Program-made: the position numbers and the translations under genes
In this document: one piece after another, positions 2,267 to 18,203 of the stretch
How positions within the stretch are numbered: the first letter of the stretch is position 1
How the letters are laid out: every line of letters begins with the position of its first letter
DNA from: an uncultured Bacteroidia bacterium
GTDB taxonomy: Bacteria; Bacteroidota; Bacteroidia; NS11-12g; UBA9320
DNA length: 41,145 nucleotides
NCBI GenBank assembly: GCA_905478335.1
Contig: CAJQIC010000040.1
Coordinates: 1-41,145, forward strand
Direction: 5' to 3'
The notes under the pieces: model-generated
The model's input: only the letters and a program-made list of their open reading frames with translations
The model's database searches: none
What the model was told of the DNA's origin: nothing

Positions 2267-3588
2267 ACCTCGTATCCGAGCAGCTTCATCTTCCAATTCT
2301 GACAAGGCCTTTTGATCTGCAGAACTAAGGTTGTTGATAAGGTTATTCAGTTCATAAGGGTCTTCATTCAAGTTGTAGAACCTTCTGTTTCCGCCGTCAA
2401 ATTCTATCAGTTTGTATGTACTGTTTCTAATCGTATAACCCGATCTGTTTGGTGCATCATTGTGCACTTCGCTGTAGTTAAACGCTCTTTGATCCGAACG
2501 AGAATTATCTAATAAGCCTGCAAAGCTATAGCTGTCTTCGTATTGGGTGGCATTACTTCCAAGGAGTTCTCCAATTGTAGCGAACAGGTCAACAGAACCG
2601 ACCAAAGCCGCTTCACGAGAGCTTGCTCCATCAATGCCAACGCCAGACACAATCAAAGGCGTGTTAATTCCTCCTTGGTATAATGTTCCTTTGGCTTTAT
2701 TCGATACAAAAGGTGCCTGAACCACTTGACCAGGGCTGCCATTGTCGCCTATAAAAATAATTATGGTGTTGTCTAGCTCGTCAGAAGGAATGTTGTCCAT
2801 AATTCGCCCAAGTTCATGATCCACACTTTCAATCATTGCCATATAATAGGGCAGTGGGTTTGCATCTATACTGGCCTGGTCTGAAGGTAAGTTTCCTTGA
2901 GCGTGCATAGAGTCAGGAGGTAAATGAAAAGGCGTGTGAGGAGCCGTATAGGCTAACCAACAAAACCAGGGTTTGTCTTGATTGTTTATCCAGTCTATTG
3001 CCAAATCTGTAAACTTAGACGTTACATATTCCGTAGATGTTGTGGTTTGCCCGTTTTCAGTAAATTGCCACGAATTATAATCTTGAACAGCACCAGTAAG
3101 CAAACCTGCGTAATATCCAATACCCATTTGCGTTGGGCGGTTTGGCTCTCTGGTCGAAAGATGCCATTTGCCAATAATAGAATGGCTATACGCATTGCCT
3201 GTTATATCATCTATATGTTGATGTAATGTCTTTTCATCGGCTTTGATTGTTCCAAAGTCTCCGACATCCAATACACCACTGTTGTACCCATACTTGCCAG
3301 ATAAAATTGTTGCGCGCGTAGGCGAGCAAATGGGGTAAGACCAAAAGTTGTCGAAAGTGACCCCATCTTTTGCCAACGCTTCTAGGTGTGGCATATTGGG
3401 TTTGACAGCTCCTATGTTGTAACCTGGGAAGGCTTCAATACCCACGTCATCTGCAATGACCAATAAATATTTGGTTGGTTAGATACCGGAGTAAACCATT
3501 CACCATCAACTTTGTCGTCTTTACAGCTTGTCAATACCAGGGTAGTGATCAATAAAACAATGGGGAATGCGCTTTTAAATCTTTTCAT
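2264..3588 (-). pseudogene. Sulfatase lipoprotein, apparent single-base frameshift near the N-terminus
   Basis: The main frame (3463 to 2264, 399 residues) is a Cys-type sulfatase. Its start VIADDVGIEAFPGY is the metal-binding first strand. CSPTRATILSGKYG carries the Cys-x-Pro-x-Arg site (Cys46 of this frame) that must be matured to formylglycine by an anSME or FGE enzyme. IGKWHLS and IFIGDNGSPG are further active-site segments. Sulfatases hydrolyse sulfate esters, for example of algal or host polysaccharides. The frame lacks its natural beginning. From an ATG at 3588 another frame encodes a lipoprotein signal (ITTLVLTSC, Cys22) followed by DGEWFTPVSNQP, which should continue as KYLLVIADD. 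One extra A in the coding-strand A-run (plus-strand TTT at 3470-3472) would join them. This is either a true frameshift mutation or a homopolymer sequencing error. It starts 4 bases after the ywbE stop. Confidence 0.8.
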
Positions 3589-3592
3589 ATTT

Positions 3593-3805
3593 TTACATGT
3601 CTTCTAAAGGGTCGGCAATAATGTTTTTGACGCGTCCAACTTCACCAGTTTCGAGTAGAACTTTAATGCCATGCGGGTGATTACTTGATTTAGTAAGAAT
3701 GCGTTCTACAAATCCGTCGGTCAAATCACCGGAGCGTTGATTGTGTTTTTCGACAATTTCTACCTCACTTCCAATTTGGATATTGCTTCTTTTCGTCCCG
3801 TCCAT
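3593..3805 (-). CDS. ywbE: YwbE family protein (DUF2196)
   Basis: 70 residues starting MDGTKRSNIQIGSEVEIV. The family features are the basic start, the HNQRSGDLTDGFVERILT segment and the conserved SNHPHGIKVLLETGEVGRV block near the C-terminus, giving a small beta-rich, KOW/SH3-like protein. No biochemical role is established for this family. The reading frame stays open upstream to 4171, but that extension runs into a repeat element and loses family similarity, so the ATG at 3805 is preferred. The sulfatase start follows 4 bases after its stop, suggesting co-transcription. lepA lies upstream on the same strand, 736 bases away. Confidence 0.88.
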   Translation of the reverse strand: MDGTKRSNIQIGSEVEIVEKHNQRSGDLTDGFVERILTKSSNHPHGIKVLLETGEVGRVKNIIADPLEDM

Positions 3806-4020
3806 CTTCTGTTCTTGTTCTTTGTGTCTTCTAATAAACCTGAAAATGATTTCACCGACGTCAGATTCATTCAATGAGGCAAAGTAATTTACTTTTTCAA
3901 AGAAATCTGGATACTGCTGAAAAAAACAGTAAATAGGTAGTGTAGTATCCAAGTATATGGTGTTAGACAGATAGTAGTTGCTATAGATTCCATGCGTAAT
4001 CCTTTTTTTATTTAGGGGTT
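3806..4020 (-). other. Open, non-repetitive spacer upstream of ywbE
   Basis: This 215-base stretch between ywbE and the repeat element has no gene I can support. The ywbE frame is open through it and would encode tyrosine- and phenylalanine-rich residues (SNYYLSNTIYLDTTLPIY, then FRFIRRHKEQEQK) in front of MDGTKRS. I recognise no family and see no clear -7 box. It may hold the ywbE promoter and leader or a lineage-specific extension. Confidence 0.35.
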
Positions 4021-4477
4021 GCCACTCCGCCGGTGGTCGGACAGGCTCCTGTGACCCGGCTTTCATTTTTCTTTGAACTCTTGAAGAGCTTTTTCTTTGC
4101 TTAGGGGCTTGCCAGCCCCTTACCCTGGCTTTCATTTTTTTCTTGATAAAAAAACGAAACAAAAAAATCAAGACTTCTGAATTTTTCCTTGAACTCTACG
4201 AAAGGCTTTTCTTTCCCTCAGCCAAAGCCGCTGCGCTTTCCTGCCTGCTTAGCGCAAGGCCTGCACACAAAAGCCTTCCTCGTTTTCTACAGAAAACTTC
4301 AAAGGTCATATTAAACCATGCACGGGTTAATGAGGGGTGGCCCACCAAAAATGCGGGGGACGCGCCGGCCGGTGTGTTAGGGAGCATATTTTTGGTAAGA
4401 CTTTTTGTTTCGTTTTTGGTCTCAAAAATGAAAATCGGTTATAGAGCTTGTCCGACCACTGGCGGACTGATAAGCCT
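4021..4477. repeat. Nested palindromic repeat element (MITE-like) downstream of lepA
   Basis: The outer inverted repeat pairs 4025-4048 (TCCGCCGGTGGTCGGACAGG region) with the reverse complement of 4444-4467, 21 of 24 positions identical. An inner inverted repeat pairs 4133-4174 with the reverse complement of 4395-4430, sharing the core AAAAACGAAACAAAAA. The first inner arm is itself flanked by TCTTGAT/ATCAAGA. The internal part (4300-4390) is much more G+C-rich than the surroundings (GCGGGGGACGCGCCGGCCGG). There is a GGGG-CTTGCCAG-CCCC hairpin at about 4113-4129, and the TTGAACTC...GGCTTTTCTTT motif occurs twice. No transposase is present. The structure suggests a non-autonomous mobile repeat or a structured RNA element. 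Confidence 0.65.
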
Positions 4478-4515
4478 AATCGACGAATTCTTGAATGCTG
4501 ATAAGCCTAAGCGAC
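4466..4515 (+). repeat. Short direct repeat beside the palindromic element
   Basis: The 16-base unit TGATAAGCCTAAnCGAC occurs twice about 30 bases apart (starting near 4468 and 4499), between the outer arm of the palindromic element and the lepA stop codon. It could be a duplicated end of the element or a footprint of its insertion. Confidence 0.5.
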
Positions 4516-4541
4516 AAACAACGTACCGATGCCTTGAAAGA

Positions 4542-6332
4542 TTAATCATTAATCTTAAGAACCGCCATAAATGCAGATTGTGGAATTTCGACATTTCCAA
4601 CCTGACGCATACGTTTTTTACCTTTCTTCTGTTTTTCAAGAAGCTTACGTTTACGGGTAATATCACCACCATAACATTTAGCGGTAACATCCTTACGCAT
4701 CGCTTTAATCGTTTCGCGAGCGACAATTTTACTACCAATACCGGCCTGAATAGCAATTTCGAACTGTTGTTTAGGAATCAGTTCTTTTAGCTTTAAACAA
4801 ATCTTTTTACCGTATTCATAGGCCTTATCTCTATGGATAATCGCGGACAAAGCATCCACTGGTTTAGCGTTAAGAAGTATGTCTAATTTGATCAATTCAG
4901 ATTGACGATATTCAATTGGATGGTAATCAAAACTGGCATAACCACGTGATATAGACTTCAACTTGTCGTAAAAATCAAAGACAACTTCGGCCATGGGCAT
5001 TTCAAAAGTCAATTCCACCCGACTGGTCGTCAAGTAGACCTGATTTTTTAGTTGGCCACGTTTTTCCATGCACAATCCCATTACAGCACCAACGTAATCG
5101 CCGGCGGTGATGATTTGTGCATTGATATAAGGTTCTTCAACGTAATCGAGGTTACTTCCTTGCGGTAAATCCGTTGGGTTGTTTACAATGTTTTGTTCTC
5201 CTCGTTTGTTGAACGCGTGATACGAAACGTTTGGCACCGTGGTAATTACCGTCATGCCGAATTCACGCTCCAGTCGTTCTTGAATTATCTCCATATGGAG
5301 CATGCCTAAGAATCCACAACGGAAACCAAATCCAAGCGCAGCTGAAGATTCAGGTTCAAACACCAAAGAAGCATCATTAAGCTGCAGTTTTCCCATAGCT
5401 TCTCGCAGTTCTTCAAAATCCTCCGTATCCACAGGATAAATACCCGCAAACACCATCGGTTTAACATCCTCAAAACCCAAAACGGCAGTTTGTGTTGGCT
5501 CTTCGACCTTGGTTATCGTGTCACCAACCTTTACTTCTTTCGCCTCCTTAATTCCTGAAATAATATAACCAACATTCCCTGTTTTGATATCATCTTTAGG
5601 TTCTTGTGTTAATTTCAAGACGCCAATTTCATCAGCGTGATATTCTTTGCCCGTATTAATGAATTTAACATGATCGCCTTTCTGAATCGATCCATCGATT
5701 ACTTTAAAGTAGGCGATGATGCCTCGAAACGAATTAAATACGGAATCAAAAATCAATGCTTTTAATGGCGCTTTCGGATCTCCTTTTGGAGCAGGAACTC
5801 TATCGATAATGGCTTTGAGTATTTCTTTTACACCTAAGCCTGTTTTACCACTCGCAGGAATAATATCGTCGCGGTCGCAAAGAATGAGCTCTTCTATCTG
5901 ATCTTTTACTTCTTCTGGCATGGCACCAGGCAAGTCCATTTTGTTCAAAATTGGAATGATTTCTAACTCATGGTCTAAGGCCAAATACAAGTTAGAAATC
6001 GTCTGCGCTTGGATGCCTTGGGCTGCATCAACAATAAGTAATGCGCCTTCACACGCAGCGATAGAACGAGACACTTCATAAGAAAAATCGACGTGACCAG
6101 GGGTGTCAATGAGGTTCAGTGTATATTCTTCTCCCTCGTGCACATGCTTCATTTGTATGGCGTGAGACTTGATCGTAATACCACGTTCACGCTCCAAATC
6201 CATATCATCCAGCACCTGCGCTTTTAAATCTCTTTCAGAAACCGTCTTAGTTTCTTGTAAGAGTCTATCGGCCAAGGTTGATTTACCATGGTCAATATGC
6301 GCTATGATGCAAAAGTTACGGATGTTTTTCAT
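4542..6332 (-). CDS. lepA: Elongation factor 4 (LepA GTPase)
   Basis: 596 residues, full length for EF4. This ribosome-binding GTPase promotes back-translocation and helps in 30S assembly and stress tolerance. GTPase motifs are clear: G1 AHIDHGKS (11-18), G2 RGITI (about 50), G3 DTPGHVDF (about 77-84) and G4 NKMDLPGA (about 131-138). The EF4-specific C-terminal domain is intact and ends [20 protein letters not shown]...[11 protein letters not shown], which contacts the tRNA in the A site. The start at ATG 6332 follows a TATCTTTG box by only 7 bases. The stop lies about 65 bases from the outer arm of the repeat element. Confidence 0.98.
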
Positions 6333-6339
6333 GCGGCGG

Positions 6340-6347
6340 CAAAGATA
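6340..6347 (-). promoter_or_regulatory. Candidate lepA promoter -7 box (TATCTTTG)
   Basis: On the minus strand TATCTTTG matches the Bacteroidota -7 consensus TAnnTTTG and is followed by CCGCCGC and then the lepA ATG. No clear -33 TTG is seen at the usual distance. The gap to the start codon is 7 bases, so the transcript would be almost leaderless. Confidence 0.5.
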
Positions 6348-6461
6348 TTATTTAAGTTGAAGTTGAGGTATAATCTGAAGTCGAATAATTTTTATAAAAT
6401 TAGTATCGGTGAGAAGGGAATCATTGTGTTTTTATTTGCATTTTCTAACTAAAATTGCAGC

Positions 6462-7253
6462 ATGTACGAATTCCACGGAGATATGAAGCGTTATCATGAG
6501 ATGACGCGCGAGGTAACAGAGCAATATGTTATCCCTTTTGTCTCAGAATCTATCGATGTTTCGAAACCGTTACATGTTCTTGAAATCGGTAGTGGGGAAG
6601 CTGGAGTTCTCAGTGCATTTACAGCCCGTTGGCACCATTGCGTTGGTATCGAGTTAAGTCCACAACGTGTTGAACGTGCAAAAGCATTAATGCAAAAGGA
6701 ATTGAAGCAAGGATTGATAGAATTTATTGCTAAAGATATTTATGACATCAACCCAAATCAGTTTGAACGCAAGTTTGATCTTATCATTTTGAAAGACGTC
6801 ATAGAACATATCCATGAACAAGAAAAAATCATGGTGCGTTTAAAAGAGTTCCTTTCACCAAACGGTGTCATCTTTTTTGGATTTCCTCCTTGGTACATGC
6901 CCTATGGTGGTCACCAACAAGTAGCCAATTCCAAGATTGGAAGCAAGCTGCCATTTTATCACATTTTACCAAAGTTTTTGTACAAGGGTATGTTGAAAAT
7001 GTTTGGCGAATCGAAGGCGATGATTGAAGGCTTAGAAGAAATCAAGGATACAGGTATTTCTATTGAGCGTTTTGAGCGTATCACCAAGTCTGCTGGGCTA
7101 GAAATCGTGAATAAGACCTTCTTTTTATTTAATCCAATCTACAAATTCAAGTTTGGACTCAAACCTCGAAAACAATTAGGCCTTGTTAACTACATCCCGT
7201 TTCTGCGCAACTTCGTTACAACATGTGCGTATTATACGGTGAAGGTTAAGTAG
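6462..7253 (+). CDS. Class I SAM-dependent methyltransferase
   Basis: 263 residues. The Rossmann methyltransferase core shows motif I VLEIGSGEAGVLSAF (about 39-53), the acidic end of strand 2 (GIELS), and FDLIILKDVIEHIHE (about 105-119), typical of the Methyltransf_11/23 group, followed by LSPNGVIFFGFPP. The segment after strand 5 (YMPYGGHQQ and a long basic C-terminal region) is the likely substrate part. The substrate is unknown; similar proteins methylate small molecules or lipids. It is divergent from lepA and convergent with the ketosynthase operon, so it is probably a single-gene unit. A TAAAATTG sequence at 6450-6457 is one base off the -7 consensus. Confidence 0.85.
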   Translation: MYEFHGDMKRYHEMTREVTEQYVIPFVSESIDVSKPLHVLEIGSGEAGVLSAFTARWHHCVGIELSPQRVERAKALMQKELKQGLIEFIAKDIYDINPNQFERKFDLIILKDVIEHIHEQEKIMVRLKEFLSPNGVIFFGFPPWYMPYGGHQQVANSKIGSKLPFYHILPKFLYKGMLKMFGESKAMIEGLEEIKDTGISIERFERITKSAGLEIVNKTFFLFNPIYKFKFGLKPRKQLGLVNYIPFLRNFVTTCAYYTVKVK

Positions 7254-7364
7254 TGATGTTAACCGGTTTTGATGAAACATCTATGTTTATCAGCTCTGTT
7301 GTCGTTTAAATTCTGTTAGTGCATCGCGGCTAATTTGATTATGAATTGTCTTATTTGTAACTAA

Positions 7365-8279
7365 TTATGACGTAGCAGTTAAAGGTGTTATCTGAGGTGT
7401 TACAACCCCATCTATATTCTTGTTAAGCTTCATTTTTACCAATATCTCATGCAGTGTTTCAGCAGCTAATCCGTGTAGAACTAGCCTATACGCTGCACTG
7501 TAGGTCGAAACCGGGACCATCGGGTGCTTGTTGTTTACCAAGCCTAAATGACCAGGTGTTCCCAAAATCTGAGACGTGTAAATAGCAATGGTTTCATCCA
7601 ACTGTAAGGAATTGGAAGCCCGAACAAAGTCATTGGAAGTTAAAAACAACTGATAAAAAGGCGTGAATAATTCAATAGCGGAACGCAGATCCAATACATT
7701 TGTCCAACGATTCGGGAACTTGATATGGTCGAATTGATCTTCGGTAATCATGTCCAAATTGATTTTATCTGGGGTGGTTATCGTTATGTTTTTTTCCTTT
7801 AACTGACTGTTTAAACGAATGACGAAATTGTACAAATTCAAGTCATGATTTAAGAATAAATCATCTTTGACGTCTTCAAAGTCTTTTGGTTTTAACGGGG
7901 TACCTGTGACGTCAACGCCTGGGATATTACCAGCAATAAATTGCAAAATCTCGGTGCCAATGTGAAAGTGTCTAAATATCAATAAGTTGGCATCTGGACT
8001 AACAAATCGTTTCAAACCCCAAGCCAGGATGCGATGCAAGAATTTGGAGGAGTTAATCAGTTTTGGAAAGAAGAATTTAAACAGATGAATAAAGAACATC
8101 GTTACCTTGGAAATGAACTGAATCATTGGTAACAAATACCTTGTTGACTTCGATGAATTGTCCCGCATCAATGCCAACTTCGTTGAGGCATTTATAGGAA
8201 TACTGTCGTCTAAAAACAATGCCAGCCAAGGATTTGGGTCCCTTTCGTCGTGCGCGGATATATCCATATTTTGATCCAT
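7365..8279 (-). CDS. Conserved protein of unknown function in ketosynthase operon (possibly DUF6999)
   Basis: 304 residues, no signal peptide. The N-terminal motif DERDPNPWLALFLDDSIPIN and the block LKRFVSPDANLLIFRHFHIG look like strongly conserved family signatures. Between them a hydrophobic stretch (about 52-78) may be membrane-associated. I recall a family called DUF6999 with this kind of N-terminus but cannot confirm it. No cofactor or catalytic motif is recognisable; the His pair in FRHFHIG and the acidic DVKDDLFLNHDLN region could bind metal (inference). It is the last gene of the operon, 11 bases after the ketosynthase-HDO gene, so it probably acts in the same pathway. Confidence 0.75.
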   Translation of the reverse strand: MDQNMDISAHDERDPNPWLALFLDDSIPINASTKLALMRDNSSKSTRYLLPMIQFISKVTMFFIHLFKFFFPKLINSSKFLHRILAWGLKRFVSPDANLLIFRHFHIGTEILQFIAGNIPGVDVTGTPLKPKDFEDVKDDLFLNHDLNLYNFVIRLNSQLKEKNITITTPDKINLDMITEDQFDHIKFPNRWTNVLDLRSAIELFTPFYQLFLTSNDFVRASNSLQLDETIAIYTSQILGTPGHLGLVNNKHPMVPVSTYSAAYRLVLHGLAAETLHEILVKMKLNKNIDGVVTPQITPLTATS

Positions 8280-8290
8280 GATTTTGTTTA

Positions 8291-10141
8291 TTAATAGTTG
8301 CCTAATTCTTCCAATTGCATTTTATATAATTTAGCCGTGGCCTTCGCAGTTTTAACAATTTTTTTGGCTACATCCATATTCATTCGAGGGTGGTTCAATG
8401 CCTTTTCTAGGTTGTGAAAATGGTTCTCGTCTGCCACACTATGATAGGTAAAAAAGGACACTTGATTGTCTTTCAAATGTAACTGATCCTTGATCATTTC
8501 GCCCCAAAACCCTGCTAGACGCTTGCCAATTCCTTCAATGATGAACATCGACCCAAGTAAATCTATTGGGTTGGGTTTGCTTGCCTGCTGAAACATAAAA
8601 GAAGTCAGGCCAATTGTGCCAATATTCTTTTCAGCGGTTCTAATCGTTTCTATGTTTTCGCCTAATGCCTCATAGTTTTTCTCCAACATTTGATAGTCCT
8701 TGTGCTCAGTCGCAGTGTGCTTGATAAATGCCGAGCGAAGCTCAAATAGATCGATATCAATGTTTGATGCTGCACGTGATATCCATTGCGAACCATCAAT
8801 TACCTGTTGTCTTAGATCCATTAACAACAGTTTGTAATCTGCCATGCTCAGTTTGCCATCATGAATTTTTGTAATGATGGGCACTTTAAGTAATGCCGTT
8901 TCAAAGTCAATCCAGACTTGAGCTAAGTTGCGGATTAACCATTCTGAAGTTTCATTTTTATCGATAACCAACTCTGGAGATTCAATCTCACGTAAGGGGT
9001 ATTTCTTGGCATCATTATCTGTATTTCCAGTTACTGTTAACTGCATGTACGAAGTGATAAAACGGCCACTCTCCGGAACCATACAAAGTATAGTGTCGTT
9101 TACTTTCAACTTGCCCGATTGCATCAGCTCGTCTACCATAATGAAAATAGAGGCTGCACCTGTATTGCCTTTTGATGTTAGATTGCTGAACCATTTTTCG
9201 TCAGCGATTTCTCCCCCGCCTTTAAGCATTAACTCTTTAATAGGTTCTTTAAATACTTCTGAGGAGTAATGGCAACAAAGCCAATCGATATTGTCTCTAT
9301 TTATTTTCCCTTGATCGATTAATTCAAAGTAGTGTGCTACACCTGCTTTAATGACTTTGTCTAGCAAACGGGTATCTTGTTTTAAATTAATGGCCCCAGC
9401 TTTAGAAGCTTCTTCATAACTAGGGTAATCCAACCAAGATAATTCTTCTTCATTTTTGTTGTCCGTCTTTCCGGTAAACATGCAAACAGGAAATTCATTT
9501 GCGTGGGATTTAAGATCTACCCAATCAACACGCAGTGAAATACCCGAATCATTTTTTTTGTTTTGAAGTACAAATGCTCCTGCACCGTCTGATAACATCC
9601 AACGAAGAAATTCTGCATCGAATGGTAAAGAATCGACTCCTTGAGCTTCAAAACGTGATGCCTTAAACAATCGACTTGAAAGTTCGCTGCCAACGCAAAC
9701 TGCGTTTTGTTTTTCGGCACTTTTAATTTGAGCAAAAGCATTTTTTAATGCCATCATTCCGCTAGCACAAACACTTTGGAAACTTGCGACTTCGCACCTA
9801 TAAAAGTCTAAACCTGCGTGCACCATGCTGGCAAAACCAGGAATGGGCAAATCGCCTTGCGTTGTTCCTGTACTAAGTAATTCAACATCTGTGCTCCTTA
9901 AATTACTTTTGGCTAAAGCACCATTTACCGCGTGGACAGCCAACTGTGCATTAGAATGACTCGTTTCTTGATTTTTATTAAGCGCGTAGTGCCTTGATTT
10001 AATCCCGTTCTGTTTTAAGACACGGTCTTTTGCGCGACTATCCTTTCCGTTAATACGGCCAAGAAAGTTCTCCATTTCATCGTTAGAAACTGGATCGTTT
10101 GGTAAAAATGTACCTGTGCTTGTTATGTATACTTCGTTCAT
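8291..10141 (-). CDS. Ketosynthase III-like (StlD/DarB type) fused to heme-oxygenase-like domain
   Basis: 616 residues in two parts. Residues 1-370 are a thiolase-fold ketosynthase with an intact Cys-His-Asn triad: SVCASGM (Cys125), LCCHYSS (His291) and SKGNTGAAS (Asn326). The start FLPNDPVSNDEMENFLG and the segment FLRWMLSDGAGAFVLQ recall the StlD/DarB ketosynthases of dialkylresorcinol and flexirubin synthesis. Residues about 400-616 are all-helical and look like the heme-oxygenase-like/PqqC/UndA superfamily, with candidate ligands Glu414, His480, Glu536, Asp571 and His574 (ADENHFH). Diiron members oxidise or decarboxylate acyl or amino substrates. I cannot say whether this fusion is usual for the DarB branch. 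The start is 3 bases after the stop of the membrane hydroxylase gene. No DarA-type partner is visible. Confidence 0.8.
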   Translation of the reverse strand: MNEVYITSTGTFLPNDPVSNDEMENFLGRINGKDSRAKDRVLKQNGIKSRHYALNKNQETSHSNAQLAVHAVNGALAKSNLRSTDVELLSTGTTQGDLPIPGFASMVHAGLDFYRCEVASFQSVCASGMMALKNAFAQIKSAEKQNAVCVGSELSSRLFKASRFEAQGVDSLPFDAEFLRWMLSDGAGAFVLQNKKNDSGISLRVDWVDLKSHANEFPVCMFTGKTDNKNEEELSWLDYPSYEEASKAGAINLKQDTRLLDKVIKAGVAHYFELIDQGKINRDNIDWLCCHYSSEVFKEPIKELMLKGGGEIADEKWFSNLTSKGNTGAASIFIMVDELMQSGKLKVNDTILCMVPESGRFITSYMQLTVTGNTDNDAKKYPLREIESPELVIDKNETSEWLIRNLAQVWIDFETALLKVPIITKIHDGKLSMADYKLLLMDLRQQVIDGSQWISRAASNIDIDLFELRSAFIKHTATEHKDYQMLEKNYEALGENIETIRTAEKNIGTIGLTSFMFQQASKPNPIDLLGSMFIIEGIGKRLAGFWGEMIKDQLHLKDNQVSFFTYHSVADENHFHNLEKALNHPRMNMDVAKKIVKTAKATAKLYKMQLEELGNY

Positions 10142-10144
10142 TTC

Positions 10145-10864
10145 TTATTTGTTATGCTTGGAAAACAATTTGTCCAAGATGTGAAGAGAAAACCCATAGT
10201 TTTTTCTTCCTCGGCTATGATGCTCATTATGATGTGTTCCAAAAAGTTGTATGTCTATGCCCTTCCCATTTCCAAAACGATAGTTGCAATGCCCCGCAAA
10301 ATTCAATAGAATACTCACCAATGGATAGATGAAAATAACTACAATTGAAAAGGGGATAAATGGAACTATTGTCAATGGAACGGTACTGAGTAAAAAGGCC
10401 TCCAGCCAATGAAAACTATACACTGAAAATACCGTAGGAATTCTTGATTTGTGGTGAATGTAATGCACATGCTTCATCATAAACCTATGATGCAATATGC
10501 GATGTACTACATAAAAATGAACCTCGTTCCACAACGTTAGCGCTACAATCCCGATGAGTACATTTAACCAGGTGTTGGGTAGTAAGGTAACAACATCAAT
10601 CCGAATCAAATAGATGATTGGGATAATTGAAAAGCCAAAAACGATAATGGATTTAAAAGAGTGTTTTATTTCAAAAAGAATCTGGGGTTTGGGAACGTTT
10701 ACGTTTACTATTTTGCTCAATTTTTGTTTTCGTTCCAAGAATTTGCAGATAGTTGAAAACAGAAAGCCAACAAAAAAATATAGAAATATAAAGTACCCAA
10801 ACGAAACTCCAAACAAGGCAGTGTAGGAATAGTTAGATAAGATGTTTTCAATAAATAAATCCAT
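10145..10864 (-). CDS. Fatty acid hydroxylase / sterol desaturase superfamily membrane enzyme
   Basis: 239 residues with about four hydrophobic segments and the His-rich diiron motif set of the superfamily: HRILHH (121-126), HYIHH (134-138) and GTHHNEHH (210-216), plus His152 and His192. These enzymes use O2 and two irons at the membrane to hydroxylate or desaturate lipids, carotenoids or sterols. The substrate here is unknown. It is the first gene of a three-gene minus-strand operon and is followed after 3 bases by the ketosynthase-HDO fusion, so the substrate may be the product of that enzyme (inference). Confidence 0.88.
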   Translation of the reverse strand: MDLFIENILSNYSYTALFGVSFGYFIFLYFFVGFLFSTICKFLERKQKLSKIVNVNVPKPQILFEIKHSFKSIIVFGFSIIPIIYLIRIDVVTLLPNTWLNVLIGIVALTLWNEVHFYVVHRILHHRFMMKHVHYIHHKSRIPTVFSVYSFHWLEAFLLSTVPLTIVPFIPFSIVVIFIYPLVSILLNFAGHCNYRFGNGKGIDIQLFGTHHNEHHSRGRKNYGFSLHILDKLFSKHNK

Positions 10865-11201
10865 ATTGACTTACTTTATTATTTCTTTAGCTTTATATCG
10901 AAGGCAGAACCGTGTAAAAGTAGCCTTTAAAGTGAGTATTATTTTTTTCACATTGCAAATGTTGCAGTAAAGAACTGTTATGAATAATCTGTTTTTACGT
11001 CACCAATCACTATGACCATAAATGATTGGAAATGAAATATTAGCAGTGGGTTGATTATTAATGCGTGTAAATATTTCGCGAAATGAATGGTAAATAATTG
11101 TTTTTTGCAACAATAGTTGTGCTACCCGAAGGAAATTGTCAAATAATACTTTCGTCGGCTTTAATTACAAGATACACCTTCAAAACTGAGGGTTCAACTC
11201 C
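10865..11201. other. Intergenic region between hydroxylase operon and giant secreted protein
   Basis: 337 bases without a gene. It must hold the promoter of the hydroxylase operon and the 3' end of the giant gene. I see a perfect 12-base palindrome ATTTCGCGAAAT (11073-11084), a possible operator, and a short hairpin ATTGTT-TTTTGC-AACAAT (11097-11114). No TAnnTTTG box is obvious upstream of 10864. Confidence 0.35.
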
Positions 11202-14200
11202 TTACCGCTTCACCAACTTCACTTGATGCGTTTTGCCTTCAGTATTCAGCTCAAGAATATACACGCCTTTTGCCACATCCAACTCAAATTGATATTCAGG
11301 TTGGTTGATGCTATTCTGATTATAAACCACCTTCCCATTGAGGTCATACACTGCTATCGAAACATTTTTTAAGTCAGCCATATACACATTCACGACGCCG
11401 TTATTTGGATTTGGGTAGACTTTAACCTTATCAAAGAATACGTTATCAAACACGGATGCCAGCGATATCGTAACACAATCAGAGGTATCTACGCAGTTGC
11501 CATATCTTACTTCTACCGCATAAATGCCATTTCTGCTGGCTATAAAAGTCTGTGATGTTGCACCCGAAATTTCAGCATAGTTGTTCTTGCAATCCAACCA
11601 CTGATAGGTAACACCTGATTCGTTTACCGTCATTTGAGGGTCGTTTGTTTTCACTGTTACATCAATCGTAATAATTGTCAGATTAAGGGTAACAACAGAA
11701 TCACAACCATTGGCGTTGGTTAAAGTGAATGTTGGTGTATTGGTACTCGATGTATACGTTTTGCCGTCAATCCAAGTGAGTTCATCGCAAGCAATTTGCC
11801 TGTCTATACCCGCAGTTGGTGCATACATGGTTAAGTTAAGCGTTACGATAGAGTCACATCCTGCAGCGTTCTTAAGTGTATGCGTTGCGGTCATATTACT
11901 GGTCGTATAAGTTTTGCCATCTATCCAAGTAAAAGGGCCACAAGCCGTTTGTTTGTCAACTCCTGTGCTGTAACGATTAATGGTTAGGTTAAGTGTTACA
12001 ACAGAATCACAACCTGATGCATTGGTCAAGGTATGTGTCGCTGTATTGTTGCTCACTGTATAGGTTTTTCCGTCTATCCACGTGTAGGTATCGCAAGAGG
12101 TCTGTTTGTCGACACCCGTGCTTGAATAACTCATTGTCAGATTTAATGTAACCAAAGAATCACAACCCGAAGCATTCTGCACGGTATGTTGGGCCCTCGA
12201 GTTGCTTGAGGTATAGTTATTGCCATCAATCCAATTGTAGCTATCACAAGCAGTCTGAATGTCTGTTCCAGAATTTGCGTAGTTCACAGTCAAGTTTAAA
12301 GTGACAATCGAATCACAGCCTACCGCATTCTTCAGTGTATGCGTTGCTGTGGTGTTACTCTTTGTATAGGTTTTGCCATCTATCCAAGTAAAGGTATTAC
12401 AAGCGGTTTGTACATCAGTCGCCGTTGAATATCTCAGAATTGTTAAGTTGAGTGTGACAACCGAATCACAGCCCGCTGCATTGACTAAGGTATGGGTCGC
12501 CGTGTTGTTGCTTACGGTGTACGTTTTACCATCGATCCATTTGTAGGTATCACAAGCGCTTTGCACATCGGTGCCTGTATTTGAGTTTGTGATAACGAGA
12601 TTCAAAGTAATGATCGAATCACATCCTACGCTATTCTTACCTGCTAGTGTGTCTACATATCTTCCGCTCGAGTTATAGGTTTTCCCATTGATGGCCCAGG
12701 TGTATGCATCGCAAGCCGTGTCGTTCACGGTGGCAAAGCTTTTGGTATTTAGGGTAAGATTTAGTGTAACGACTGAATCGCAACCCGATGTGTTCTTTAC
12801 TGTATGGGTTGCCGTATTATTACTCGCTGTATAGGTTTTGCCGTCTATCCATCTGTACGAATCACAAGCCGTTTGGACGTCGGTTCCTGTATTCGACTTA
12901 TTGATTGTTAAATTCAATGTGACCACCGAATCACAACCGGTTGCGTTGGTAAGTGTGTAGGTTGCTGTTGTGTTACTTGACGTGTAGGTTTTGCCATCTA
13001 TCCACTTATAGGCGTCACAAGCGGTTTGATTGTCTGTACTATTACTGGATTTATTAACGACCAAGTTTAAAGTGATTATCGAGTCGCATCCGTTTGCATT
13101 GGCACTATTCATAGTATCTCGATAAGTCCCGGTAGAAGTGTACGTTTTGCTGTTTTGTGACCATTTGTAACTATCACAAGCTGTGTCAGAACTACTTGAA
13201 GTAGTTGTTTTATAAATGGTCAAATTAAGCGTAACGGTTGAATCACATCCTACACTATTGGTCACTTTGTGTGTTGCGGTATTGTTGTTTGATGTGTATG
13301 TCTTTCCATCAATCCACCTATACGAATCACATGCAACTAAGGTATCTGTGCCCTTACTCGATTTGTTTATTATTAGGTTTAGCGAAACAACAGAATCACA
13401 ACCAGATGCGTTTGTCACCGTATAGGTAGCAGTTGAGTTGCTAGACGTATACGTTTTGCCGTCAATCCACTTATACGAATCACATTCAACGATTGTATCT
13501 ATACCCGTGTTGGATGTGTTTACAGTTAGGTTTAAGGTTATGATAGAATCACAACCAACAGCATTTGCCGCAACCATGGTGTCTTTGTATGCACCACTGG
13601 ATGTATAGGTTGTGCTGTTTTGTGACCACGTATATGTATTACATGCCGTGTCTGCAACAGTTGCAAAAGATGCATCATTTATCAATAGGTGTAGCGTTAC
13701 AATAGAATCACCACCGGCAGCATTTTTTCCTTTTAATGTATGCGTATAGCTGCCACTTGATGTATATGTTGTGGAGTTTAACGTCCATGTGTATGAAGTA
13801 CATGCAGTGTCAAAAACAGTGGCTGTGCTTGATGTGTTTTCGAAAAAGATGCTCCGATCTTCTGTTTGACCATAACGCAGGGTGCCGCACGAACTTGAAA
13901 TACGACTAAAATCGCTCAAGACACGCATACGTAGGAAAGTATCTTTCACAACAGACTTTGGAATTTTAATTGTATCTGAATGTGTTGTCCTATTCTTGGT
14001 ATCAAATACCAATTCACCTGTATCACTTAAATCACCGTTATTGTTAAAGTCTATGTAGACCTTCACATATTCATCGTTGCTGTTCCCTGTTTTAATTGTG
14101 GTGAGATAGAAAGTATCTGCCTGTAACCTTAAAATTTCTGTGCAAGTTTGGTCAACATATTCGCCTTCGTCGTATAAACCAGCAGAAGAAAATGTATAGC

Positions 14201-16928
14201 CGTTTAAGCTGACCTCAAATATGCCAATCCCATAATTAACGGACTTGTTGGTGGTTGTTGTTGAGCACTTTGCCGCAGTAACTTTAGGTGGCACTTTAAT
14301 ATTACTCGATTTAAGAATGGAATCGATTCCACTGCAGTTTTCAGCAAATAATTGCACAGAATAACTACCTACCGAATCAAATCTGATTTGAGGATTTTGA
14401 GAACAACTATCTGTTCCGTTCATAAAGGAAATGGTTTTTGGGCTTACCCTCCATAACCAGGCAGTTGGTGTATATGTAGAAGTGTCTGTAAACTGCACCG
14501 TTTCACCGGAACACAAAACTGAATTATTTGCCGCAAAGCCAGCAATTGGCTTAATCTGATCCTCGTCGTATAATGTTGACTTCCAATTACCTCTGCCGTA
14601 AGTGGCACATACCACATGACTTAGGCTTCTTCCTGATGGACTATGGTAAATTTCTATGTCTCGTACGCGCGTATTAATTGGCATATTGTCATTAAACCAA
14701 GACCAGCTAGTCATGGTTGTATCCTTGTAATACACACCCATGTAGGTGCCTAAATACATGCCTTGTTTTTTGCTGCTAGAATCAAACACAACGCACAAGA
14801 TTGGAATGTTCGGCAGTCCATTTGATATGTTACTCCAGCTAGATCCACCATTGTTAGATTGATAGATTTTGTTATTTAAGCATATCCAAACTCGGTTGGT
14901 GTACGTTGGGTGCGATTCTATCCATAACGGAGTAGTATTAACCGGTAAGGAAGATGTTAAGTCGGTCCAACTAGGGCTTGTAGCATTAACGTTGGTTGAT
15001 TTGAAAAACTTTTTATCGCTTCTTGCTACATATAAAATATCAGGATTGGCACTGGAATTTTCAATGGCTGCAATATTGGATGAGTTTGACCCAGCAACAT
15101 TGTTTGAGATTTTAGTCCATGATACACTGGTGCGAGACGACGCTTTTATATTGGTGGAGCGCCAAATATTTTTATACCCAACGAACATTGAGCTTGGCGT
15201 CCCTTCTCTTAGGACATAAGGTGTTACCCAAGCTCCTGATTCTGATATGCCGTTTACGCCACTTTTGGCAATGGTACCTTGGCTTCTGCCATCTTTGATT
15301 CTTCTGATATCGCCATAATACAAAGCGCTATAGGCATAGGTTGTTGTTGTTGGGTCAATCACACAATCCATGCCGTCGCCACCAACGACAGTATACCACT
15401 TGCCTTTCTCGTATAAACCGGTACCGTTGTCTTGGTAACCATTTATGATTGTGTTGAATTCTGTTGCGCTTTGACCCAGACGATATATTTGGGCAATGGC
15501 TAATCCATCACTAACATCTACCCAGCTTGAGCCTAAATTTTTGGTATAATAAACACCTCCATCATTACCTGAATACAACGTGTTTGTGCCAGGTTGGTAT
15601 TCCAATACATGGTTATCTGCATGGACTTTAGGCGCGCCACCGCTACCAACCCAATGGGCGTTAATTTTCCATGTTTTGCCCGAATCCAAACTTTGAAAAA
15701 TGTTCACACCGCAAACGTTAACTACGGACTTGTCAGACGGATCTACCGCTATGTCAAGATCATACCATGCTTGTCCACCAGTACCTGTACCTAAATGAGA
15801 GTAATCCATGATGTTTGGTGTGTCGCTCATTTGGGTAAATGAGGAGCCTCGGTTGGTCGATAAATAAAGCCCTTCGTACGTTTTGGAATTGGTCACTACC
15901 ACATAAACAAAGTTTGAATCATCTGGTGTTACAGCAACGGCCATTCGGCTTTTACTTGATGGCAGCCCAGAAGTTATCTGGCTCCAACTTTGCCCGTTGT
16001 CTGTAGATTTGTACAATCGTGCAGAGGTGCGACAGGCAAATAATATAGACGAATTTACGGCATCAAACACAAGGTCTTTGAAGTTTCCACTTTGCTCAAG
16101 AGCCCAGCTAGAGCCACCATTGGTAGAGCGATAAATGCCACCGTTCGTCGCTGCAATTAAGGTGTTATTGTTACTTGGGTCGATGAGTAGTTTGCCTACA
16201 ATTTTATTACCCAAACCAGAATTTGATAAAACCCATGTTTGGCCACCATCGGTACTTTTGTAGATGCCTCGACCGTATGAATCACCTGCGTCTCTATCAC
16301 CAGTGCCAAGGTAAATAGTGTCTGGTCGAGAAGGGTCTACTGCTATAGACGAAATGCCCAGACTCGAAAGTGAGTCTGTGTTGGTCGACCACGTTTGTCC
16401 GCCATCTTTGGTTACCCATAAGCCACCTGCTGGAGCACCCACATATATAATGCTTGAATCGGTGGGGTGGAAGGCAACTGCGTTAATACGCCCCAATCCG
16501 TTCGGCTGACCTGTTCTGTTAGAAGGTAGGCTTGTAGGGCCGAGTTCGACCCAATTACCTGTGGTTTGACAAGTCGCTGCACTTCCTCCAAGAGCACCCG
16601 TATTGGTTTTTTTGTTTAAACTTCTTTGCTTTAAATATTTCTCAACCTCAAAATCCAGTGCACCAGGACTTGGAATATTCCCGTTGGCGTCGATAAGTTC
16701 AGCTGTGCTGTGTTCCCAGCGCTTAAAAGGTTTGTAGCCACTACCTTTTTCTATAGTTCGGTTTTGCCAATATAAATTGAATGCCCTTTGCGTTTGGTAA
16801 AAGTTTACAGACGGATCAGCCATCATATCAATCCAATACGGCGTTTGAGTTGTATCGTTCACTGACTGTGCGACTAGAAAAGGAACAGAAAAAATAGTTA
16901 TGAATATAAGTGTAGTAAGGCGTTTCAT
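11202..16928 (-). CDS. Giant type IX-secreted protein: BNR/sortilin-like repeats, PKD, GEVED, 14 tandem repeats, Por sorting domain
   Basis: 1908 residues. Residues 1-20 are a signal peptide (FITIFSVPFLVAQS). Residues about 130-785 hold many BNR/sortilin-type beta-propeller units (STDGGQTW, STNGGSSW, STDNGQSW, STNRGSSF). Residues about 790-880 are PKD-like, with CSGETVQFTDTSTYTPTAWLW. Residues about 915-1030 are a GEVED domain (YIDFNNNGDLSDTGELVF, YGQTEDRS). Residues 1035-1754 are fourteen repeats of about 51 residues with the pattern ACDSYxWIDGKTY...GCDSVVTLNLTI. The end (VKVYPNPNNG...KGVYILELNTEGKTHQVKLVKR) is a type A T9SS C-terminal sorting domain, directing transport across the outer membrane and cell-surface attachment. 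It is likely an adhesin or surface scaffold; no catalytic site was recognised. Confidence 0.9.
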   Translation of the reverse strand: MKRLTTLIFITIFSVPFLVAQSVNDTTQTPYWIDMMADPSVNFYQTQRAFNLYWQNRTIEKGSGYKPFKRWEHSTAELIDANGNIPSPGALDFEVEKYLKQRSLNKKTNTGALGGSAATCQTTGNWVELGPTSLPSNRTGQPNGLGRINAVAFHPTDSSIIYVGAPAGGLWVTKDGGQTWSTNTDSLSSLGISSIAVDPSRPDTIYLGTGDRDAGDSYGRGIYKSTDGGQTWVLSNSGLGNKIVGKLLIDPSNNNTLIAATNGGIYRSTNGGSSWALEQSGNFKDLVFDAVNSSILFACRTSARLYKSTDNGQSWSQITSGLPSSKSRMAVAVTPDDSNFVYVVVTNSKTYEGLYLSTNRGSSFTQMSDTPNIMDYSHLGTGTGGQAWYDLDIAVDPSDKSVVNVCGVNIFQSLDSGKTWKINAHWVGSGGAPKVHADNHVLEYQPGTNTLYSGNDGGVYYTKNLGSSWVDVSDGLAIAQIYRLGQSATEFNTIINGYQDNGTGLYEKGKWYTVVGGDGMDCVIDPTTTTYAYSALYYGDIRRIKDGRSQGTIAKSGVNGISESGAWVTPYVLREGTPSSMFVGYKNIWRSTNIKASSRTSVSWTKISNNVAGSNSSNIAAIENSSANPDILYVARSDKKFFKSTNVNATSPSWTDLTSSLPVNTTPLWIESHPTYTNRVWICLNNKIYQSNNGGSSWSNISNGLPNIPILCVVFDSSSKKQGMYLGTYMGVYYKDTTMTSWSWFNDNMPINTRVRDIEIYHSPSGRSLSHVVCATYGRGNWKSTLYDEDQIKPIAGFAANNSVLCSGETVQFTDTSTYTPTAWLWRVSPKTISFMNGTDSCSQNPQIRFDSVGSYSVQLFAENCSGIDSILKSSNIKVPPKVTAAKCSTTTTNKSVNYGIGIFEVSLNGYTFSSAGLYDEGEYVDQTCTEILRLQADTFYLTTIKTGNSNDEYVKVYIDFNNNGDLSDTGELVFDTKNRTTHSDTIKIPKSVVKDTFLRMRVLSDFSRISSSCGTLRYGQTEDRSIFFENTSSTATVFDTACTSYTWTLNSTTYTSSGSYTHTLKGKNAAGGDSIVTLHLLINDASFATVADTACNTYTWSQNSTTYTSSGAYKDTMVAANAVGCDSIITLNLTVNTSNTGIDTIVECDSYKWIDGKTYTSSNSTATYTVTNASGCDSVVSLNLIINKSSKGTDTLVACDSYRWIDGKTYTSNNNTATHKVTNSVGCDSTVTLNLTIYKTTTSSSSDTACDSYKWSQNSKTYTSTGTYRDTMNSANANGCDSIITLNLVVNKSSNSTDNQTACDAYKWIDGKTYTSSNTTATYTLTNATGCDSVVTLNLTINKSNTGTDVQTACDSYRWIDGKTYTASNNTATHTVKNTSGCDSVVTLNLTLNTKSFATVNDTACDAYTWAINGKTYNSSGRYVDTLAGKNSVGCDSIITLNLVITNSNTGTDVQSACDTYKWIDGKTYTVSNNTATHTLVNAAGCDSVVTLNLTILRYSTATDVQTACNTFTWIDGKTYTKSNTTATHTLKNAVGCDSIVTLNLTVNYANSGTDIQTACDSYNWIDGNNYTSSNSRAQHTVQNASGCDSLVTLNLTMSYSSTGVDKQTSCDTYTWIDGKTYTVSNNTATHTLTNASGCDSVVTLNLTINRYSTGVDKQTACGPFTWIDGKTYTTSNMTATHTLKNAAGCDSIVTLNLTMYAPTAGIDRQIACDELTWIDGKTYTSSTNTPTFTLTNANGCDSVVTLNLTIITIDVTVKTNDPQMTVNESGVTYQWLDCKNNYAEISGATSQTFIASRNGIYAVEVRYGNCVDTSDCVTISLASVFDNVFFDKVKVYPNPNNGVVNVYMADLKNVSIAVYDLNGKVVYNQNSINQPEYQFELDVAKGVYILELNTEGKTHQVKLVKR
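11667..13826 (-). repeat. Fourteen in-frame tandem repeats, ~153 bp period
   Basis: 2160 bases encode residues 1035-1754 of the giant secreted protein, 14 units of 51-53 codons. There are two unit types. Ten or so have WIDGKTYT...ATHTL.NA.GCDS; the others (units 1, 2, 5 and 8) have a longer W(S/T/A)xN(S/G)xTY.SSG.Y.DTM..A form. Each unit has two cysteines, except unit 1, whose second Cys is Gly (AAGGDS). The alternation is irregular, suggesting duplications of single units and of small blocks. Confidence 0.95.
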
Positions 16929-16953
16929 CTTTTAGGGTAAAATGCGTGGATTA

Positions 16954-16961
16954 CGAAGATA
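16954..16961 (-). promoter_or_regulatory. Candidate -7 box (TATCTTCG) for giant secreted protein
   Basis: TATCTTCG on the minus strand fits the TAnnTTYG form of the Bacteroidota -7 box and lies 25 bases upstream of the ATG at 16928. No convincing -33 element was seen. Confidence 0.35.
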
Positions 16962-17072
16962 ATTGTTTTCACTAGTTGTTTTCAGAGGTCAATATTGATA
17001 TGACAATGATAATATATACGTCCGGCTGAATTGCATTAAAGCAGCTATATCATGTTTGCTTTTAATCTAGCG

Positions 17073-18203
17073 TTACAGCTTGAGCAGTTTTGTTACTTCA
17101 ATGCCATGATCCGTATGTATCGTTACTGTGTACATATTGCTTGGCAATGATTCGGTTGATAAAATAGATTCTTTGCTCGAAGCGTTTAAAACTTTAAATA
17201 AAAGCTCTTTCCCTTGCATATCTTTTACTGATATCGAATTTATGAAATGATTGCTTGTCAACTTGACCGTTCCACTAGTTGGATTGGGAAACAATATGGC
17301 TTTTGGTGTATTAAGTGAAAGTGCGCTTGATGTAGCAATTCTACCATCGCTATTAAACTGTGATAAAAATCGCCAGATCTCAACAGATGCAACAATGTCA
17401 TAATTTGTATTGCTGGTTTTAAGTCCGTTTCCAGGCCATTTGTGCTCTCCATTGTTAACGCGTAAATGCTCTACGGATATCCCATTTTTCCCGTTTTCGT
17501 ATAGGAACTGGGTTACACTAGAGCCATCCGTTTTATCAATATCAGGCATGTTTGTAATCGTAGGAGTGGCATCACAACCATTGTAATTTACACAGATGTC
17601 GATGATGCCTGGAATTTTGTAAGCGTTATAGCTGACAACATTGTCATTTGTTCCATGGATTTGCATAATAGGTACTGGAAAGCCATCGAAGCATCCAGCA
17701 GTATCAATTAGCGATCCACTAACCGCTCCAATTCCTGCAATTTTTCGTTCTAAATGGCAAGCCAGGTAAAAGCTCATGAAAGCACCTTGTGAAAATCCAG
17801 TACTGCATATTCTTTTTTGGTCTATACTGAACCGACTAGAAACGTTTTCAATCAGGGAGTCTAAAAAGCCAATGTCATCTACGGTGTCTGCGCTCGGGTT
17901 GAAATTCCAATGCGTTATACCATCCTTGTCTAATAACCCTTGTGGGTGCACAATGATGAAGTTCGCAGTATCTGCGATGTATCGGAAATCGCCATAGGTC
18001 ATAAAATTCTCGGCTGTTCCGTTCTTTTTATGCATACCAAGCAGCAACGGGACCTCGTCTGTATTTGAGTAAATTGCAGGAACATAGATAATAAATGACC
18101 GTGTAACACCGTCGTATGTAATGGTTTCTCTCAGCGTTTGCTGTGCCTCGCAGTTCGTACTGAATAGTAGCGTAAGTAGAGATAATAGACCGAATGCTTT
18201 CAT
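17073..18203 (-). CDS. Secreted PHB-depolymerase/feruloyl-esterase-like hydrolase with T9SS sorting domain
   Basis: 376 residues. A signal peptide (MKAFGLLSLLTLLFSTNCEA) is followed by an alpha/beta hydrolase of the polyhydroxybutyrate depolymerase / LpqC esterase group (about 22-285). The catalytic triad is readable: nucleophile Ser138 in GFSQG, Asp187 in HGTNDN and His254 in NNGEHKWPG; PLLLGMHKKNG carries the oxyanion loop. Residues about 300-376 (AILFPNPTSGTVKL...SNMYTVTIHTDHGIEVTKLLKL) are a Por secretion sorting domain, so the enzyme is exported to the surface or medium. Likely substrates are ester-linked polymers such as polyhydroxyalkanoate or acylated polysaccharide; the sequence does not decide. 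It is transcribed in the same direction as the giant protein, with 144 bases between. Confidence 0.87.
   Translation of the reverse strand: MKAFGLLSLLTLLFSTNCEAQQTLRETITYDGVTRSFIIYVPAIYSNTDEVPLLLGMHKKNGTAENFMTYGDFRYIADTANFIIVHPQGLLDKDGITHWNFNPSADTVDDIGFLDSLIENVSSRFSIDQKRICSTGFSQGAFMSFYLACHLERKIAGIGAVSGSLIDTAGCFDGFPVPIMQIHGTNDNVVSYNAYKIPGIIDICVNYNGCDATPTITNMPDIDKTDGSSVTQFLYENGKNGISVEHLRVNNGEHKWPGNGLKTSNTNYDIVASVEIWRFLSQFNSDGRIATSSALSLNTPKAILFPNPTSGTVKLTSNHFINSISVKDMQGKELLFKVLNASSKESILSTESLPSNMYTVTIHTDHGIEVTKLLKL

Follow-up and report, generated by a model that had tools for sequence, protein, structure and literature searches.

The dialkylresorcinol pathway, known from flexirubin and arcuflavin, comprises two enzymes, DarB and DarA, named DAR-cyclase and DAR-aromatase, respectively, in a table of PMC3949708. 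DarB is reported to make 4-carboxy-2,5-dialkylcyclohexane-1,3-diones and StlD related diones (PMC5515871), and heterologous darB and darA together are reported to yield a dialkylresorcinol (PMC3992019). UndA, the founder of the HDO enzymes, is described as a fatty acid decarboxylase (PMC13108848); a 2026 review of HDO enzymes has 0 occurrences of "ketosynthase", "fused", and "fusion" in its main text. The locus described here codes for a ketosynthase (KS) of the StlD/DarB type fused to a heme-oxygenase-like HDO domain, a protein of the DUF6999 family, and a membrane protein of the FA_hydroxylase/sterol-desaturase superfamily (FAH). It is situated on contig CAJQIC010000040.1 (assembly GCA_905478335.1) of an uncultured Bacteroidia bacterium (NS11-12g; UBA9320), whose 41,145 nucleotides, the whole stretch analysed, are called the window (Table 1). 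The cluster very probably encodes a dedicated lipid or secondary-metabolite pathway, which we tentatively read as short, self-contained, patchily distributed, and a DarA-independent branch of the DarB/StlD pathways. Its parts belong to known superfamilies; the combination of the KS-HDO fusion with DUF6999 was not met in the open-licence literature searched.

Table 1. Genes and domains of the cluster, with positions in the window
Feature	Coordinates	Strand	Basis
FAH, FA_hydroxylase/sterol-desaturase superfamily, integral-membrane, 239 aa, first gene	10145..10864	-	PF04116, His motifs, hydropathy
KS-HDO fusion, 616 aa	8291..10141	-	Open reading frame, Pfam
KS domain, approximately residues 1-372, StlD/DarB-like, Cys125-His291-Asn326	9026..10141	-	NF005293, StlD structure match
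HDO domain, approximately residues 385-616	8291..8989	-	PF14518 (borderline), 3dde
DUF6999 protein, 304 aa	7365..8279	-	PF22523, 401.5 bits

The gene order read in the original prediction, which was made from the letters of the DNA, is confirmed: the FAH and KS-HDO genes are separated by 3 bases and the KS-HDO and DUF6999 genes by 11. Pfam, curated profiles, and structure matches support the superfamilies it had named (FA_hydroxylase, StlD/DarB-like KS, haem-oxygenase-like domain) as well as the fusion. The third protein, then listed as unknown, does have a family name in Pfam, DUF6999 (PF22523), and its function is indeed unassigned. The prediction had also noted that no acyl carrier protein (ACP), DarA-type enzyme, or transporter is visible, and this agrees with a DarA search of the window, which was null, and with a reading by eye of the open reading frames of at least 50 aa between the flanking genes, among which no ACP-like or transporter-like one was seen.

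The conservation of the unit was assessed by a query with DUF6999 alone, from which the best 80 of at least 550 confirmed loci were fetched (loci, genomes, and contigs carry our numbers with the prefixes L, G, and C); since these are the most similar ones, the frequencies of the fusion and of FAH apply to close relatives. The fused KS-HDO gene adjoins the DUF6999 gene on the same strand in 76 of the 80 loci. Homologues that are never neighbours, the outcome named beforehand as speaking against a functional cluster, were thus not what was found; the genes stay together across Bacteroidota, and in relatives beyond the phylum. In 50 of the 76 loci (49 of 64 among those titled as Bacteroidota groups) FAH is found upstream of KS-HDO, no more than 300 bases away, so that of the predicted three-gene cluster KS-HDO and DUF6999 stand as the core and FAH becomes an accessory. 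KS-HDO and DUF6999 have a gene of the FA_desaturase family between them in 10 of the 76 loci; the cluster desaturase of L036 matches PF00487 with 65.9 bits. Overlaps of 4 bases join FAH with KS in 10 of 50 loci and KS-HDO with DUF6999 in 8 of 66. The flanks vary, with no family among the two nearest open reading frames on each side found in more than 6 of the 80 loci.

The four loci outside the 76 are L082 and L096, which lie at contig ends, L101, with a shortened DUF6999 and no KS, and L070, in which an N-terminal piece of FAH is directly followed by pieces of a desaturase (9243-9870) and no KS-HDO was found, owing to a deletion or to a fault in a metagenome assembly. The 76 fusions include one with a frame change (L041), one cut by a contig end (L114), and one given an over-long start by the script (L118). 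The frame change, in a Brumimicrobium contig (at about position 8376), falls near residue 80 of KS and may be a sequencing error or decay.

Among 58 relatives the full-length fusion is carried by four genomes (G000, G341, G329, and G334, the bacterium's own included; 71-100% identity), and it was not found in the four other genomes of the same genus. A relative (G312) retains at L038 (C58, 1541-1837) a fragment of a KS-HDO/DarB-like ketosynthase, corresponding to approximately residues 54-173, with a stop within the match, a remnant. A sample of 296 genomes of the phylum Bacteroidota, searched with the DUF6999, HDO, and StlD/DarB profiles, yielded DUF6999 in five genomes and the HDO profile in four, and the four with full-length DUF6999 are the four with HDO. 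The fifth genome, G219, has only a weak and divergent DUF6999 match, that of L009 (see below). A chance neighbourhood is ruled out by this co-occurrence together with the adjacency in 76 of 80 loci and the variable flanks, and an artefact of the genome's own assembly by the presence of KS and HDO in one open frame in 76 loci. The distances within KS-HDO and within DUF6999 are correlated (r 0.94 over 59 loci, none of 2000 permutations being as high), partly through the phylogeny of the organisms; in the 49 closest loci the correlation is 0.78.

The KS domain matches PF08541 (39.4 bits), and its best relative among solved sequences is that of the StlD crystal structure (E 4.7e-82). StlD is also the best Foldseek match of the KS-HDO model (mean pLDDT 89.8, pTM 0.64), with a TM-score of 0.92 on the target and a root-mean-square deviation (rmsd) of 2.0 over 383 columns. 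The catalytic triad C125, H291, and N326 is kept in all 60 rows of an alignment of the window protein with 59 of the 76 fusions, from which near-copies and incomplete ones were excluded. In a tree from which StlD itself was left out, 34 rows of the DarB/StlD side, KS-HDO among them, split from six FabH-like rows with support 100/100. The four KS-HDO proteins of the phylum sample score 425.7-448.7 bits against the StlD/DarB profile NF005293 and the 23 DarB proteins 488.7-601.5, that is, in separate bands. The next-best ketosynthase of this type in the bacterium's own genome reaches only 31.5 bits, so there is no second one at the StlD/DarB level.

The HDO domain is presumed to be a non-haem dimetal domain activating O2. 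The original prediction would have been undermined by a C-terminal fold unlike that of heme oxygenase, and nothing of the kind was seen at the level of sequence profiles: a profile of the domain matches 3dde (E 3.8e-8), a protein of solved structure whose fold is described as heme-oxygenase-like. The region is all-helical in the KS-HDO model, for which, taken as a whole, the Foldseek rows shown are filled by KS matches. Candidate metal ligands H475, E479, D482, E536, H567, D571, and H574 are invariant in the 60 aligned fusions and likewise in all 10 more divergent fused or separate HDOs of a set chosen by hand, in one of which H480 is replaced by Gln. E536 of the middle helix and the His-x3-Asp-x2-His motif (H567, D571, H574) align with 3dde and fit the HDO pattern; we take these four residues to be the alpha2 and alpha3 part of the HDO ligand set, in which three His and three carboxylates are spread over helices alpha1-alpha3.

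The DUF6999 protein matches PF22523 over the entire profile (1-275 of 275; cut-off 27). Its model is all-helical (mean pLDDT 81.7), with one borderline hydrophobic stretch by hydropathy. An alignment was made of the window protein with 65 of 78 full-length members, near-copies and incomplete ones being excluded, and in 12 of 12 hand-chosen divergent members, including the short one of G219, residues R103, H104, H145, D146, N223, D228, H269, E274, and L280 are kept. The invariant residues include three histidines and three carboxylates, distributed over four helices of the model, which suggests a putative metal site. A second HDO domain was considered and ruled out by the absence of profile similarity. 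No usable fold relative was obtained with Foldseek (best E 0.38) or VIA-align (best Z 3.7 over 147 residues, rmsd 5.3, to a GPCR, the list consisting of unrelated helical proteins), which is no proof of a new fold. The profile matched no solved sequence up to E 10, and no paper on DUF6999 was found in the open-licence literature searched. FAH matches PF04116 with 76.3 bits (cut-off 31), shows hydropathy segments of at least 1.6, indicating membrane spans, and has 11 histidines, including two HxxHH motifs, that are invariant in five cluster homologues; PF04116 matches at four more places in the same genome, at one of these below the cut-off.

DarA was identified by homology among the proteins adjoining DarB and from the above-mentioned table of PMC3949708. 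DarB scores above 450 bits in 23 of the 296 genomes and has DarA beside it in 22 of these 23 loci; the remaining one, L169 (G238), shows DarB with no DarA match in a locus of 4.1 kb. By contrast, no match to DarA at E 1e-3 was obtained in the window, in the 80 cluster loci, or in eight further loci, nor was DarA found in 11 of the 14 system-carrying genomes searched, the bacterium's own and one that is 67% complete (G329) included. On plasmids of Prevotella and Phocaeicola (L145, L146) a StlD/DarB ketosynthase directly follows a TetR regulator; no neighbour there is annotated as DarA, by annotation alone, as no DarA search was made in these two.

Relatives outside Bacteroidota occur in Paenibacillus/Cohnella, Myxococcota, Acidobacteriota, and on a Pseudoalteromonas plasmid. 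Counting the centre genomes, DUF6999 matches were found in 3 of the 99 genomes sampled from the order to which a Paenibacillus genome belongs, 16 of 146 from the phylum of a Myxococcaceae genome, and 4 of 149 from the phylum of an Acidobacteria genome; the latter two samples thus provide 20 genomes, from 11 of which the regions were fetched. KS and HDO accompany DUF6999 in 8 of these 11 regions (fused in five, separate in three; in L194 DUF6999 is on the opposite strand), KS without HDO in one (L196), and neither in two. Desaturases occur in three regions (L191, L193, L195) and FAH in one. On the Pseudoalteromonas plasmid three consecutive genes code for KS, a separate HDO, 36% identical to the HDO domain of the window, and DUF6999. 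In L196 (G536, 2770-10727) DUF6999 and KS lie near a P450, a thioesterase, a short-chain dehydrogenase/reductase, and an MMPL transporter, no HDO being found, and this is possibly a biosynthetic cluster with another oxidase, the P450. L009 (G219:C242, 1404-5132) comprises a divergent DUF6999-like protein, a StlD-like KS, no HDO that could be found, and a PF00743 protein resembling flavin monooxygenases, possibly a replacement for HDO; its DUF6999, short and very divergent, scores 21.5 bits in the protein scan (cut-off 27), and the genome search gives it 32.2 bits over a frame that contains a stop. L197 (G552, 6375-7235), with a 62-residue piece of DUF6999 joined to an unrelated part in one open reading frame and no KS or HDO nearby, is likely a remnant. 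The divergent loci point to KS and DUF6999 as the constant pair, HDO as the usual oxidase, and FAH and desaturases as accessories; this comparison suggests a unit of KS, DUF6999, and an oxidase, the last being HDO, either fused to KS or encoded by its own gene, or perhaps a P450 or flavin monooxygenase encoded nearby.

In the pathway that we propose, KS, using Cys125-His291-Asn326, would join two activated chains from fatty-acid metabolism, a beta-ketoacyl and a 2-enoyl one, as expected from its family, to form a 2,5-dialkylcyclohexane-1,3-dione, probably with the 4-carboxylate reported for DarB. The DarB/StlD literature together with the likeness of KS makes a cyclic 1,3-dione its most likely product, and ring-forming chemistry is what we rather expect of it. 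Since no DarA turned up, some other oxidant must complete the ring, and the fused HDO is the obvious candidate. It would take the place of DarA in oxidising the ring: if the 4-carboxylate were lost in the manner of UndA and the neighbouring hydrogen abstracted, the dialkylresorcinol would form in one step, and in the fused protein the dione would pass directly to the oxidase; such an aromatising role is conceivable and is offered with reserve. DUF6999, kept with KS whichever oxidase is near, would act, as an enzyme or an accessory, on what KS produces, and FAH, elsewhere a membrane desaturase, may hydroxylate or desaturate the chains in the membrane. A product of the lipid type, already foreseen in the original prediction, is supported by the recurring FA_hydroxylase and FA_desaturase genes. 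The boldest form of the proposal, in which the fused HDO opens a new O2-dependent dialkylresorcinol-type route and DUF6999 is a second, new all-helical metalloenzyme needed by this KS branch, has an outside chance of being right.

Several observations weigh against this proposal. KS misses both curated cut-offs, with 423.6 bits in the protein scan against NF005293 (cut-off 450) and 394.9 against the DarB profile NF053539 (cut-off 550), and its product may therefore differ from those of DarB and StlD; in the tree KS-HDO is weakly supported as a single group (46/37). The match of the C-terminal part to PF14518 (Haem_oxygenas_2) is borderline, with 26.4 bits in the protein scan and 29.4 in the genome search (cut-off 28.9), and this profile fails to match the separate HDO of Pseudoalteromonas. 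In the first helix D482 aligns, in the only alignment covering the position, with a His of 3dde, so that the chemistry of the domain may not be UndA-like. DarA is present in 3 of the 14 system-carrying genomes (G182, G475, G356), of which G182 has a separate DarB of its own with DarA beside it (L156). Neither ACP nor an acyl-activating enzyme was seen among the genes of the cluster, FAH is dispensable, and DUF6999 rather than HDO could replace DarA.

This last alternative, in which DUF6999 does the job of DarA (dehydration, decarboxylation, or aromatisation) and HDO hydroxylates the finished ring or chain to give, e.g., a trihydroxy- or hydroquinone-type lipid, is unlikely, but it comes first among the rivals since DUF6999 persists in loci where no HDO was found: the protein accompanies KS in L009 and L196, and among the 23 DarB genomes only G182, which also has KS-HDO, carries DUF6999. 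The invariant set R103/H104/H145/D146/N223/D228/H269/E274 looks catalytic as well, but the family offers neither a known fold nor a known activity as a starting point, and the L009 member is the divergent one described above. Rather less likely, the cluster could modify a membrane lipid by branching, desaturation, or hydroxylation, the acyl group of KS remaining ACP-bound and no free metabolite being made. FAH, weakly OlsE-like, and FA_desaturase (65.9 bits) are enzymes of the membrane-lipid type, and the cluster showed no gene for a transporter or an activating enzyme; against this, KS belongs to the StlD/DarB type of condensing enzymes, which form rings, and FAH is not found just upstream in 26 of the 76 loci. 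Formation of a beta-keto acid or linear ketone by KS, followed by UndA-type oxidative decarboxylation to a long-chain alkene, dienone, or hydrocarbon, recalls the fatty acid decarboxylase UndA (PMC13108848) and OleA, likewise a condensing enzyme with the thiolase fold (Foldseek rank 49), but is improbable, as KS resembles StlD (target TM-score 0.92, 39% identity) more than OleA (0.83, 18%), no conserved OleB/C/D partner is apparent, with no neighbour family in more than 6 of 80 loci, and a hydrocarbon gives no reason for the constant DUF6999.

Below the cluster lie a methyltransferase gene, on the opposite strand, and a GTPase gene, presumably LepA-like judging from its sequence, and above it the gene for a 1908-aa secreted protein (11202-16928) with Sortilin-like matches, a type IX sorting tail, and, as read by eye, many similar "CDSYxWIDGKTYT" repeats. 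A scan for promoters and terminators gave counts not above those in shuffled sequence.

The proposed DarA-independent branch would give DUF6999 a firm partner and a testable role, would link HDO enzymes to lipid or polyketide condensation, and leads us to expect an as yet uncharacterised lipid in scattered members of Bacteroidota, Paenibacillaceae, Myxococcota, and Acidobacteriota. Caulobacter vibrioides, a laboratory model whose genome served as a control, has matches to DUF6999 and PF14518 over the cut-offs and to NF005293 at E <= 1e-60, obtained in separate genome searches, so that a tractable test organism may exist.

When the parts are set beside known systems, FAH shares PF04116 and the histidine motifs with the OlsE/fatty-acid hydroxylase superfamily, but scores only 28.8 bits against the OlsE cut-off of 475. 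The HDO domain has in common with the dimetal oxidases UndA, BesC, SznF, and CADD the middle-helix Glu, the His-x3-Asp-x2-His motif, and, in its model, an all-helical domain, and differs from them in being fused to a condensing enzyme and in its first helix, where H475-E479-D482 forms no clear Glu/His pair. KS shares in its model the fold of StlD (PDB 5gk0, 5gk2), the ketosynthase of bacterial stilbene biosynthesis, at 39-40% identity; the StlD chain of known structure is 402 residues long and lacks a second domain, while the window protein has 616 and carries HDO. A ketosynthase 42.5% identical to that of the window is encoded by the Streptomyces plasmid NZ_CP108315.1 (L144), a linear plasmid typed as mobilizable, where DarB-DarA-type genes stand together with ACPs, an FAD monooxygenase, SCP2, FabF, and a P450, i.e., with oxygenases and lipid genes (7706-17110). 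Its DarA-like neighbour, which as a query finds DarA beside 22 of the 23 DarBs, shows no homology to DUF6999, and the annotated genes within 8 kb include neither HDO nor DUF6999. With the DarA-DarB pathway, common in the same phylum, the window system shares the side of the tree, the Cys-His-Asn triad, and the expected condensation of two chains. It differs in that no DarA was found nearby or in its own genome, in the scores of KS below the cut-offs, in the absence of any neighbour family recurring in more than 6 of the 80 loci, and in having HDO fused on and DUF6999 as a partner.

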